Assembly (NCBI GenBank): GCA_018262455.1
Contig: JAGSPR010000044.1
Span: 1-29,826 of the forward strand
Length of the DNA: 29,826 bases
Direction of reading: 5' to 3'
DNA from: Deltaproteobacteria bacterium
Lineage (GTDB): Bacteria; Myxococcota; Polyangia; Haliangiales; Haliangiaceae
Part shown: positions 1,107 to 19,868 of the stretch, one piece after another
Numbering within the stretch: the stretch's first letter is position 1
How the letters are laid out: each line of letters starts with the position of its first letter
Position numbers and translations under genes: made by a program
The notes under the pieces: model-generated
What the model saw: the letters and a program-made list of their open reading frames with translations, nothing else
Database searches by the model: none
What the model was told of the DNA's origin: nothing

Positions 1107-1877
1107 TCAGGGCGGCGGCTCGAACCGGTAGAACCCTGCAAGCTGCGCGTGGAGCTCGGGCTCGCTGCGGGCCAGCTCTTCGGGCTGAAGGAAGTACGCC
1201 TCGGTGGCCACCGCGAAGAACTCGGCTTCGTTCGTCGCGCCGTAGTCGTCGAGGAAGTGGCGCTTGCCCGCCTCCACGCGCTGGCGCAGCTCGCGCACCG
1301 CCTGAGAGCAGACCTCGGCCCATGCCCTCCGGGCCGCGCGGTCCGCGAGCGGGGGGGTGCCGTCGACCGTGCCGTCGAGCATGTCGATCTTGTGCGCGAA
1401 TTCGTGGAACACAACGTTGCGCACAGCGCCGCTGCGTCCGCCGGCCAGCACGTCGTCCCACGCGAGGATCACCGGCCCGCCGAGGTGCGCCTCGCCGTGG
1501 ATCGGCGTGCCCGCCTCGTCGACGGCAACGCCCCCAGGGTCGAACAAGCCACGGCGCCGGGCAGGCGAGACGACCGTCGCCGGGTAGACGAGGATCGACT
1601 CCACATCCTCGTACAGCGCGTGCTCCCGGCCGAGCAGCAACATGCACGCCTGTGCCGCGATCGTCACCTCGATCTCGTCGGTCAGCTCGAGGCCGCCGCA
1701 GCCTTCCCAGTGCTTCTCGGACATGAACACCTGGGTCAGCTCGCGGAGCCGTTGCTGGACGTCCTCCCCGAGGCGCCCCCACATCGCGACGTGCTGCGCG
1801 AGGAAGCCGTTCCAATGCCGAGGGAACGGCCGCTCCAGCAGCTTGCTGCGACGGCGTTCCGTCAACCACTCGAACAC
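1107..1877 (-). CDS. mtfA: MtfA-like zinc metallopeptidase (M90), paralog 1
   Basis: A 256-residue protein starting at GTG 1877. It matches the MtfA/M90 family over its full length. It has the N-terminal segment RPFPRHW, the conserved EKHWEGCGGLELTDE block (54-68), a VYPATV block, the LAWDDVLAGG block, and the zinc site HEFAHKIDM (His158, Glu159, His162). The third acidic ligand region is NEAEFFAVATE (216-226). In enterobacteria MtfA is a cytosolic aminopeptidase that binds the glucose repressor Mlc. No Mlc-like gene is seen here, so the partner is unknown. A second full-length paralog lies at 2484-3260 on the same strand. The selenoprotein gene sits between them on the other strand, its start 54 bases from this start. 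Confidence 0.9.
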   Translation of the reverse strand: MFEWLTERRRSKLLERPFPRHWNGFLAQHVAMWGRLGEDVQQRLRELTQVFMSEKHWEGCGGLELTDEIEVTIAAQACMLLLGREHALYEDVESILVYPATVVSPARRRGLFDPGGVAVDEAGTPIHGEAHLGGPVILAWDDVLAGGRSGAVRNVVFHEFAHKIDMLDGTVDGTPPLADRAARRAWAEVCSQAVRELRQRVEAGKRHFLDDYGATNEAEFFAVATEAYFLQPEELARSEPELHAQLAGFYRFEPPP

Positions 1878-1931
1878 CCAGCCAGACTACACTGCACCCA
1901 CGTACCCGGCCCCTCTGCCCAGGATGTCCTG

Positions 1932-2447
1932 ATGACTCAGAAGCACCTGCTGCTCGCGCTCCTCGTCGCGATCGCCTGCTCGCACCCTGCGCCGGAGGGC
2001 ACCGTGACCGGCGCGGCCGCACCCGCCACCTCGTTCACCACCACCAAGGGCGCGACCGTCGCGCTCGCGGACACGTGGGGCGCGCACAGCCAGACGATCG
2101 TCGTGTTCTATCGCGGCTTCTTCTGACACAGCTGCACCCGCTGGCTCGGCGAGCTGGCAAGTCACGCGACCGAGCTCGAGACCCGGCGGATCGCGATCGT
2201 CGCGGTCTCGGCCGATCAGCTCGACGATCTGATCGGGCTCGGCAAGACCCTCCCCGGCGTCACCCTCGTCAGCGATCCACGGCTCGAGGCGTCCGCTGCC
2301 TGGGGCCTCCGGGTCCCCGGGGCCGAACAGCCGTCCCCCGCCACCTTCGTCGTCGACGCCGGCGGCATCATCCGCTGGCGCAAGCTCGGCGACGAGCGCG
2401 GCGACTGGCCGACCTACGCGGAGCTCGCCGCGGGCCTCGCCCGCTAG
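1932..2447 (+). CDS. Selenocysteine-containing peroxiredoxin-like lipoprotein (in-frame TGA read as Sec)
   Basis: ATG 1932 is preceded by AGGA (1921-1924) at ideal spacing. The frame runs to TGA 2124-2126, then continues open for 106 codons to TAG 2445-2447. Read through, it gives 171 residues with the order of a peroxiredoxin/AhpC-TSA fold. The features are a lipoprotein-like signal (LLLALLVAIAC, Cys16), the strand-plus-loop IVVFYRGFF then residue 65 (TGA) then HSCTRWLGEL, then IAIVAVSAD, LVSDPRLEASAAWGL and PATFVVDAGG. In the family the motif is FYRG-x-W-C-P-x-C, so the TGA replaces exactly the peroxidatic Cys, making U65-H-S-C68. A SECIS-like hairpin follows at once. Ordinary calling would stop at a 64-residue fragment or drop the gene. 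Prx-like selenoproteins with UxxC are known in bacteria. Envelope location and peroxide or disulfide chemistry are inferred. A nonsense mutation of TGC is the alternative. Confidence 0.85.
2127..2156 (+). promoter_or_regulatory. Putative bacterial SECIS element
   Basis: Directly 3' of TGA 2124-2126 the RNA can form a hairpin. The outer stem CAGCU (2129-2133) pairs with AGCUG (2152-2156), and the inner stem CCG (2138-2140) pairs with CGG (2147-2149). The apical loop is CUGGCU (2141-2146) with a GG at 2143-2144, 17-18 bases after the TGA. Bacterial SECIS elements lie immediately downstream of the UGA within the coding region and have a G in the apical loop about 16-37 bases from it, so geometry and position fit. 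Fold energy was not computed. Confidence 0.65.
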
Positions 2448-2483: not shown

Positions 2484-3260
2484 TCAATCGAGGTAGCGTG
2501 CGCGCAGGCGGTAGAAGTCGGCGAGCACCGCGTAGAGCGCGGGGTGCTCCCACGCCAGCGCGAACGGCCGGCAGAACAGCGTCTCGGTGGCGACCGCGAA
2601 GAACTCGGCCTCGTTGGTCGCGCCATACGCATCGATCACCGTCGGCTCTCCGGCATCGACGCGCATCCGGAGCTCGTTGTAGCCGGCGGTCAGGACCTCG
2701 CCCCAGCGCTCGCGTTCGCCGGCGTTCGCCAGCGGCGGCGTCCCATCGACCGCGCCATTCGCCATGTCGATCTTGTGAGCGAGCTCGTGAAACACGACGT
2801 TGCCCGACACCTCCTCGCGTCCACCCGCGAGCACGCTGTCCCACGCCAGGACGACCGGTCCGCCGAGCATCGCCTCGCCGAGGATCGTGTGCCCGTGCCC
2901 GACCGGCGATCGAGGCTGCTCGAACGTGCCGAGGCGCCGCGGCGGAGAGATCATCGTCGACGGGTATACGAGGATCGAGGCCACATCCTTGTACAGCCGG
3001 GTGTCCTCGTGCCCCAGGAGCAGCACACATGCCTGCGCCGCGATCGTCACCTGGATCTCCTCGGTCAGCTCGAGCCCGCCGCAACCTTCCCAGTGCTTCT
3101 CGGCCACGAAGACCTGCACGAGCTCGCGGAGCATGGCCCGCGATCCGGGATCGAGCCGGCGCGCGATCGCCACGTTGTCATCGATGATCGCGTCCCACTC
3201 CGGAGGGAACGGGGCCGAGAGGATCCGACGGCGACGGCGCTTGGCGAGCCAGCGGAGCAT
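2484..3260 (-). CDS. mtfA: MtfA-like zinc metallopeptidase (M90), paralog 2
   Basis: A 258-residue protein starting at ATG 3260. It is a full-length paralog of the protein at 1107-1877, with the same motif positions: EKHWEGCGGLELTEE (54-68), LAWDSVLAGG, HELAHKIDM (His158, Glu159, His162) and NEAEFFAVATE. The two align almost without gaps through the zinc site, which points to an ancestral tandem duplication. They differ most in the middle loop (about 108-128) and at the C-terminus. All zinc and catalytic residues are kept in both, so both are probably active. The gene converges on the selenoprotein gene, whose stop is 36 bases from this stop. Confidence 0.9.
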   Translation of the reverse strand: MLRWLAKRRRRRILSAPFPPEWDAIIDDNVAIARRLDPGSRAMLRELVQVFVAEKHWEGCGGLELTEEIQVTIAAQACVLLLGHEDTRLYKDVASILVYPSTMISPPRRLGTFEQPRSPVGHGHTILGEAMLGGPVVLAWDSVLAGGREEVSGNVVFHELAHKIDMANGAVDGTPPLANAGERERWGEVLTAGYNELRMRVDAGEPTVIDAYGATNEAEFFAVATETLFCRPFALAWEHPALYAVLADFYRLRARYLD

Positions 3261-14242: not shown

Positions 14243-18877
<4,635 letters not shown>

Positions 18878-18882
18878 CCGGC

Positions 18883-19092
18883 GTGACGGAGCTCCCCGAT
18901 GCCCGCGACGGACTGACCCGGCTCGAGCGGATCATCCTGTGGCAACTGCGCCAGGCCGAGCGCGAGCGCGCCGGCTCGGTCTCGACGGCGATGCTCTATG
19001 GCCGCGTGGTCGAACACATCAACGTGTCGGTCGACGAGTTCCAGGCGACCCTGCAGCGGCTGGTTGGCGCCGGCGTGGCGCCCAGGCGCTGA
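18883..19092 (+). CDS. Small protein, unknown function, possible winged-helix fold
   Basis: A 69-residue protein from GTG 18883, five bases after the kinase stop, so translation is probably coupled. It reads DGLTRLERIILWQLRQAERER, then STAMLYGRVVEHINVSVDEFQATLQRLVGAGV: three helices and a turn reminiscent of a small winged helix or helical regulatory protein. No family is recognised. The regular amphipathic pattern and close spacing support it being real. Confidence 0.6.
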   Translation: MTELPDARDGLTRLERIILWQLRQAERERAGSVSTAMLYGRVVEHINVSVDEFQATLQRLVGAGVAPRR

Positions 19093-19184
19093 GGCCGCCG
19101 CCAGCCCCGCGCCACGATGCCGCACGGCTCGTCGAGTCGCCGGCCGGGGGTGCTTTTCGCGCGCAGATCTGCCAGGGTCCGCCC

Positions 19185-19868
19185 GTGGCTGACGACGCCG
19201 CGAGCTCCGCACCGATCCCTGGACGAAAGCTGCTCGTCGGGATGCTCCTCGTCTTCCTGCTGGCGGTGGTGCCCGCGATCTTCGTCCCGACGCTGATGTG
19301 TCGGCAGCCAGATCCCGAGCTGCCAGACCTCGGGCCGGTGCCGGCGTTCACGCTCGTCGACGAGCGGGGCTACGAGTTCACGCAGGAGGCGCTCCGCGGT
19401 CATCCGACGATCGTCGATTTCGTGTTCACGCGCTGCGACACGATCTGCCCGGTCGTGTCGAGCAAGATGGAGCGGCTGCAGGACAAGACCGGCGACCGCA
19501 AGGCCTCGGCGCTCAAGCTGCTCTCGATCTCGGTCGACCCCGAATATGACACTCCGGCGCGGCTGGCCGAGTACGCCACCCGGTACCATGCCGACGTCGA
19601 GCGCTGGCGGTTCCTCACCGGACCCAAGGACAAGGTCACCGCGCTGGTGACCGGTGCGTTCATGATCAACATGGATCGCGACGGCCCGATGCCGTCCGGG
19701 GCCCCCTCGATCGCCCACCAGGGCTACTTCGTGCTGGTCGACGCCGAGCTGAGGATCCGCGGGGTCTACGACTCGAGGGACCAGGCGCGGCTGGACGAGC
19801 TGGTCCACCACGCGCGGTTCCTGGTCCGCACCGGGGTGGATCGCTCTTACAAGTTCGGCGGCCCCTAG
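19185..19868 (+). CDS. Sco1/SenC-like copper chaperone or thiol oxidoreductase
   Basis: A 227-residue protein from GTG 19185, with AGGG seven bases upstream. It has one N-terminal membrane anchor (about 15-36, KLLVGMLLVFLLAVVPAIFV), then a thioredoxin-fold domain. The Sco copper motif is present: TRCDTICPVVSSKM (Cys84, Cys88) and His177 in IAHQGYFVLVD. SISVDPEYDTP and FLTGPKDKV are family blocks. Sco proteins deliver copper to the CuA site of cytochrome c oxidase or reduce its cysteines, facing the periplasm. No oxidase gene is in the window, so the client lies elsewhere. Confidence 0.92.
   Translation: MADDAASSAPIPGRKLLVGMLLVFLLAVVPAIFVPTLMCRQPDPELPDLGPVPAFTLVDERGYEFTQEALRGHPTIVDFVFTRCDTICPVVSSKMERLQDKTGDRKASALKLLSISVDPEYDTPARLAEYATRYHADVERWRFLTGPKDKVTALVTGAFMINMDRDGPMPSGAPSIAHQGYFVLVDAELRIRGVYDSRDQARLDELVHHARFLVRTGVDRSYKFGGP

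Follow-up and report, generated by a model that had tools for sequence, protein, structure and literature searches.

A probable lipid-anchored selenoprotein of the Prx-like UxxC kind in a Myxococcota lineage

Background

The canonical motif of peroxiredoxins is PxxxTxxC, and in AhpE a catalytic arginine, Arg116, belongs to the active site. Other thioredoxin-fold oxidoreductases are characterised by a cis-proline; one of them, the thiol-disulfide oxidoreductase ResA, has a CxxC motif and is located in the envelope. The selenoprotein SelL carries the motif UxxU, where U stands for selenocysteine (Sec).

Selenoproteins that combine a peroxiredoxin-like domain (PF00578) with a UxxC motif are already known and common: the consulted part of PMC2398784 calls this kind 'Prx-like 1' and counts 225 of them in an ocean survey, and the consulted parts of PMC9312934 and PMC13188914 name them 'Prx-like thiol:disulfide oxidoreductase'. 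The Sec-containing peroxiredoxins described in the same portions of PMC9312934 and PMC13188914, and in that of PMC1088965, have the motif TxxU. According to the latter, bacterial SECIS elements lie just downstream of the UGA, and their apical loop is small and contains a guanosine. Among the hits listed by a literature search, with subscription journals mostly outside its coverage, no paper concerns selenoproteins of Myxococcota, and the string 'myxococc' is absent from the selenoprotein papers searched for that word, PMC9312934 and PMC13188914 included.

Here we study a gene of a 29,826-nucleotide stretch of DNA, called the window in what follows, whose frame is broken by one TGA. Its product resembles the Prx-like UxxC selenoproteins, as far as the consulted text describes them, in its AhpC/TSA domain, in the UxxC that replaces TxxC and in having Cys-containing homologues; compared by description, the window clade differs from them by the blocks RWLGEL and DWPTYAEL and by a lipoprotein-like N-terminus. 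It shares Pfam family and fold class with the Sec-peroxiredoxins (TxxU), but its U comes three residues earlier and a Cys occupies the peroxidatic place. Where AhpE (Rv2238c), a 1-Cys peroxiredoxin, has the Thr and Arg116, the product has Sec and Pro. The best NCBIfam match, over residues 30-127, is the SelL-related redox protein (NF040769); the score of 38.4 bits is far from the cut-off of 120, and the window protein has UxxC. ResA is matched both by the family profile and by fold, but below several peroxiredoxins in both searches.

Results

A reading frame broken by one TGA

A sequence-only reading of the window had proposed a frame broken by a single TGA and preceded by a good AGGA site, and both are confirmed (Table 1). 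The TGA is the only internal stop; 106 sense codons follow it, and reading through yields a product of 171 amino acids. The Pfam family AhpC-TSA matches residues 27-149 (E 1.6e-18, 67.3 bits against a cut-off of 26), so that the homology spans the TGA. The motif around codon 65 is FYRGFF-U-H-S-C, and the product contains Cys16, U65 and C68 as its only Cys or Sec residues.

Table 1. Features of the gene, in window coordinates
Feature	Position	Strand	Remarks
Prx-like selenoprotein gene (best explanation)	1932..2447	+	171 codons when UGA counts as Sec; ends at TAG 2445-2447
AGGA, likely ribosome-binding site	1921..1924	+	ATG 7 bases further on; from sequence
TGA, codon 65, probably read as selenocysteine	2124..2126	+	first residue of UxxC
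Cys68, second residue of UxxC	2133..2135	+	aligned with the peroxidatic Cys in true peroxiredoxins
Putative signal peptide with lipobox-like A-I-A-C	1932..1979	+	Cys16 (1977-1979), candidate lipidated residue
Candidate bacterial SECIS hairpin	2140..2158	+	8-bp stem 2140-2147 / 2151-2158, loop GGC 2148-2150
Pro136	2337..2339	+	replaces Arg116 of AhpE; resembles cis-Pro of thioredoxin-fold oxidoreductases

Elsewhere in the window, TGA ends six of the seven genes that were checked, namely those of RecN, NAD kinase, both M90 peptidases, the Na/Ca exchanger and the sigma-54 regulator; the seventh, a kinase-TPR ORF, ends in TAG. UGA thus still stops translation here, which makes a changed genetic code unlikely. 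Against a changed code, or unspecific read-through without Sec, stand these six TGA stops, the fact that Cys is the only alternative found at the site, and the enrichment of selA in genomes with TGA-bearing matches, both described below, and we consider it extremely improbable.

Codon 65 among relatives

A search among 5.8 billion proteins with the read-through product returned 15 relatives. Five of them (P0002-P0006) are full length, 48-57% identical, and carry Cys at position 65 (FWCxTC): these are the Cys homologues that the sequence-only reading had proposed to look for. The other ten have 101-102 residues and begin at the column directly after Cys68, as gene callers stopped by a Sec codon might leave them; the expectation that annotation would truncate such a gene finds support in these ten of the 15 database relatives, which all begin after the motif.

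A scan of genome contigs added a locus with TGA at the same codon: L001, on contig JACCYD010000620.1 of a Myxococcota MAG (genome G001), which reads FRGFYUKSCTRWLGEL. The survey of its class, described next, gave a second, L006 (genome G073), 52% identical. Among the matches listed, they are the closest orthologues of the window gene. Of 289 genomes in the class of G001, at least 50 have a match at E <= 1e-12; in at least 42 of these, one or more matches contain a TGA. The counts are lower bounds, since no more than 12 candidates were scored in any one genome. We inspected 33 loci, that is, 32 of the 59 matches listed by the class survey and one weaker match: column 65 is TGA in 25 of them and Cys in the remaining 8, with no third state. 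The 25 TGA loci come from 23 genomes out of the 42 that have a TGA-bearing match, and it is in these 23 that the position of the TGA was verified. Genome G001 carries two more TGA-bearing Prx-like UxxC genes, L004 and L005 (FYRGDWUPHC and FYRGHWUPWC), so several Sec paralogues coexist in it.

Rates of substitution were estimated by the method of Nei and Gojobori, with our own script, after the TGA and in the 44 codons that precede it. For the pair window-L001, dN is 0.41 and dS 0.85 after the TGA (0.56 and 0.76 before); for window-L006, 0.44 and 0.68 (0.39 and 0.61 before); and for L001-L006, 0.42 and 0.83 (0.48 and 0.65 before). Protein-level constraint persists past the TGA, and is roughly as strong as in the 44 preceding codons. 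The decayed 3' half that the sequence-only reading had named as a possible sign against Sec is not seen in L001 and L006. An extra conservation of the codons right after the TGA appears for window-L001 only, and is absent for window-L006 and L001-L006.

In a tree of 34 rows, built without 15 of the 33 loci L002-L034, the window protein, L001, L006, the five Cys proteins and the ten fragments form one clade with support 100/99. Sec and Cys states are mixed on this tree: there are five changes overall, two of which are forced by well-supported branches.

These comparisons bear on two explanations in which the TGA is an accident. In the first, the gene is a pseudogene whose premature stop truncates the protein: the ordinary use of TGA as a stop in six of the seven checked genes speaks for it, as does the fact that the Sec machinery is known from relatives' genomes alone, but it is at odds with the TGA at the same site in L001 and L006, with the coding constraint past the TGA and with the TGA-linked hairpin of the next section, and we judge it very unlikely. 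In the second, a sequencing or assembly error turned a Cys codon into TGA, a change of one base. Against it, the TGA recurs in separately assembled genomes, and the window has a fully paired 8-bp hairpin that is found in none of the eight Cys genes; such an error is barely credible.

The gene shows the pattern expected of a bacterial selenoprotein: its UGA lies in frame, homology extends to either side of it, and homologues have Cys there. By comparison with its relatives, UGA 2124-2126 behaves as a sense codon, at a position that is Sec or Cys in them. That Sec is inserted at codon 65 seems to us nearly certain, and the proposal of a UxxC with Sec at this codon, made from the window sequence, agrees with the 25 TGA and 8 Cys states among the 33 loci and with the hairpin linked to the TGA.

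A hairpin linked to the TGA

A hairpin can form at +14 to +32 after the TGA. In the window by itself it is not significant: it has 8 pairs against 6.6 expected, and 156 of 1000 synonymous versions equal it (p 0.139 in another run). In the set of 26 TGA genes, the eight stem positions hold 177 pairs, against 142.8 +/- 5.1 in synonymous-codon shuffles, a count reached by none of 1000. The evidence for the hairpin thus rests in the set of genes, and not in the single sequence. The hairpin was spotted in the sequences on which it was then tested, and relatedness plays no part in the shuffles. A rerun on non-redundant TGA genes gave 155 pairs against 124.4 +/- 4.8 for 23 genes, and 147 against 117.5 +/- 4.8 for the 22 that remain without the window. 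The 16 TGA genes that all encode LGEL give 113 pairs against 89.0 +/- 4.2. None of 1000 shuffles reaches the observed count in any of these three cases.

The eight Cys genes have 37 pairs against 34.0 +/- 2.6, a value reached by 159 of 1000 shuffles, and the two of them with LGEL have 12 against 10.4 +/- 1.3, reached by 203 of 1000. At least six contiguous pairs are present in 22 of the 26 TGA genes and in none of the 8 Cys genes; six of these eight encode other residues in the stem region and only two share LGEL, so that the contrast between TGA and Cys genes is partly a protein difference. Among the TGA genes, L019 and L029 have five of the eight pairs or fewer, and the pairing of L016 and L020 is below their own synonymous mean.

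Two-sided, compensatory changes occur at three stem pairs in the 26 TGA genes: the pair +15/+31 is CG in 17, GC in 6, AT in 1 and unpaired in 2; +18/+28 is GC in 23, AT in 2 and GT in 1; and +19/+27 is CG in 23 and TA in 3. Every one of the 26 has a loop that starts with G; the codon demands it, and 6 of the 8 Cys genes share it. A scan over all offsets from 1 to 120 and loops of 3 to 6 gives the hairpin the top rank in the TGA genes, with 6.4 of 7 pairs; in the Cys genes it comes fourth, with 4.6 of 7. Folding energy gives no signal, neither for the window stretch (z -0.40 and 0.42) nor against synonymous shuffles in the 26 TGA and 8 Cys genes (mean z 0.03 and 0.02), and a search of Rfam found nothing.

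The hairpin is kept in the TGA genes beyond what the codons require, and not detectably so in the 8 Cys genes. Its features fit the bacterial SECIS elements described in the consulted part of PMC1088965.

Selenocysteine machinery in the lineage

The RecN protein of the window is 80-82% identical, over nearly its full length, to those of genomes G129, G066, G157, G166, G060, G001 and G121. At E <= 1e-150, RecN matches are found in 25 genomes, of which 24 belong to the family of G073 and one, G010 (62%), lies outside. The Sec machinery was surveyed in that family (30 genomes) and in the class of G001 (289 genomes), taken as the window's relatives. The RecN matches of G019, G028 and G010 carry one TGA inside, perhaps no more than the ordinary stop close to the end.

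In the family of G073, a tRNA-Sec scores over the cut-off in 26 of 30 genomes, the best match of each having at least 66 bits against a cut-off of 47, in a search whose built-in controls passed in 5 of 14 known genomes; selD is over the cut-off in 27 of 30. The suggestion of an organism able to decode Sec finds its support, at the level of the lineage, in these two counts. An in-frame TGA, wherever it lies, is present in 17 of the 27 selD matches and lacking in 10; this split may reflect a change between Sec and non-Sec SelD inside the family.

Genome G073 has the whole set: selA (530 bits), selB (298 bits), tRNA-Sec and selD. In G001, selB and selD are present; no selA and no tRNA-Sec were found there, a weak absence as the contigs seen are 3-13 kb long. 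Across the class of G001, selA is over the cut-off in 127 and selB in 128 of the 289 genomes, a sign that Sec machinery is widespread in this Myxococcota class. Moreover, 38 of the 42 genomes whose matches include one with TGA have selA over the cut-off, compared with 89 among the remaining 247 (p 1.6e-11, kinship ignored). The four exceptions are G001 and G104, which have selB, and G134 and G194, with neither gene over the cut-off. Three genomes, G065, G086 and G109, have two selA matches over the cut-off each.

The active site

The fold is plainly peroxiredoxin-like. Among proteins of solved structure, the best matches in sequence are peroxiredoxins, the nearest being Bcp and AhpE. In the alignment to true peroxiredoxins, U65 falls in the column of the Thr of TxxC and C68 in that of the peroxidatic Cys, while R61 and U65 occupy the places of the expected Pro and Thr of PxxxTxxC. 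The Cys68 column is Cys in all 24 alignment rows that cover it, the remaining 10 rows being fragments. The residue aligned with Arg116 of AhpE is P136, and this column is P in 33 of 34 rows. The sequence-only reading had placed Sec at the peroxidatic position; the alignment puts Cys68 there, three residues after U65, and we reject that placement. With a UxxC at the TxxC site and an AhpC/TSA score above the cut-off, the product agrees with the Prx-like UxxC selenoproteins.

ResA is among the matches of the family profile (E 1.3e-16), and Foldseek retrieves the ResA structure 1su9 at rank 30, with a TM-score of 0.81 by target.

Selenium is a good peroxide nucleophile, and a Sec-dependent peroxidase may be imagined on this scaffold: U65 would reduce hydroperoxides, C68 would resolve, and an envelope thiol would reduce the enzyme back. 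Such a function would be in keeping with the peroxiredoxin fold and with Bcp and AhpE as nearest solved relatives. However, both the Thr of TxxC and the Arg are replaced, and the known Sec-peroxiredoxins, in the consulted part of PMC1088965, have TxxU. The replacement of Thr by U65 and of Arg by P136 makes the peroxidase the weaker reading, and we consider it unlikely.

N-terminus and neighbourhood

Read against the lipobox consensus, the residues AIAC that end at Cys16, seen by eye, are lipobox-like. A Cys near the N-terminus is also present in seven relatives (L001, L006 and P0002-P0006), so the lipoprotein-like beginning noticed in the window alone is a shared one. We think it likely that the product is a lipoprotein.

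Two paralogous M90 (MtfA-like) metallopeptidases flank the gene on the opposite strand, at 1107-1877 (-) and 2484-3260 (-). They were not found beside L001 and L006, where 10 ORFs were scanned and 3 had a Pfam domain, none of them M90. Further along the window, 18114-19868 (+) is a 584-residue ORF with a late SCO1/SenC domain (residues 411-546); it overlaps the end of the kinase-TPR ORF (14243-18877), and its true start is probably further in.

Discussion

These data are best explained by a gene for a selenoprotein with a peroxiredoxin fold, one of the 'Prx-like, UxxC' kind that is probably anchored by a lipid. We hold it to be highly likely that the product is a Sec-containing UxxC redox lipoprotein, an estimate that leaves its substrate aside. 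As to its activity, UxxC replaces TxxC, Pro136 replaces Arg116, ResA is matched, and the consulted parts of the reviews name this kind a thiol:disulfide oxidoreductase: on these grounds we lean towards thiol-disulfide exchange rather than peroxide reduction, an envelope thiol-disulfide oxidoreductase being the most likely role.

Such a protein might work as follows. SelB would bind the hairpin, as a SECIS, and bring Sec-tRNA-Sec to the UGA; the product would then be exported and anchored through Cys16. At the start of a helix, U65 would attack an oxidised substrate or a disulfide, and C68 would resolve the intermediate into a U-C selenenylsulfide, to be reopened by some thiol reductant. Since the product has no Cys or Sec other than these two and Cys16, UxxC must carry the whole cycle.

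The window clade occurs in at least 2 of the 289 class genomes (G001 and G073, among the matches listed). In an evenly drawn sample of the phylum, of 377 genomes, only G001 carries it at the level of orthologues (1.2e-73), two other matches of G001 and one of G197 being at the level of paralogues; G073 is not among the matches of this sample, and was probably not drawn. A search of plasmids gave one record, 28.6% identical. What is new here is a clade, rare and probably lipid-anchored, within a known family of selenoproteins. We would give about even chances to the fuller statement that a rare, unnamed Myxococcota clade of lipid-anchored Prx-like selenoproteins belongs to a family with repeated swaps between Sec and Cys, many members being filed as 101-residue 'peroxiredoxin' stubs.

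A gene broken by annotation is thus very probably whole, and it enlarges a known family of selenoproteins by one clade. The hairpin common to 22 of the 26 genes offers this lineage a testable SECIS. If the proposed role is true, these bacteria would have at their envelope a Sec-based UxxC reductase whose cycle is closed by the neighbouring Cys alone, and which would be fed by an envelope reductant yet to be discovered.
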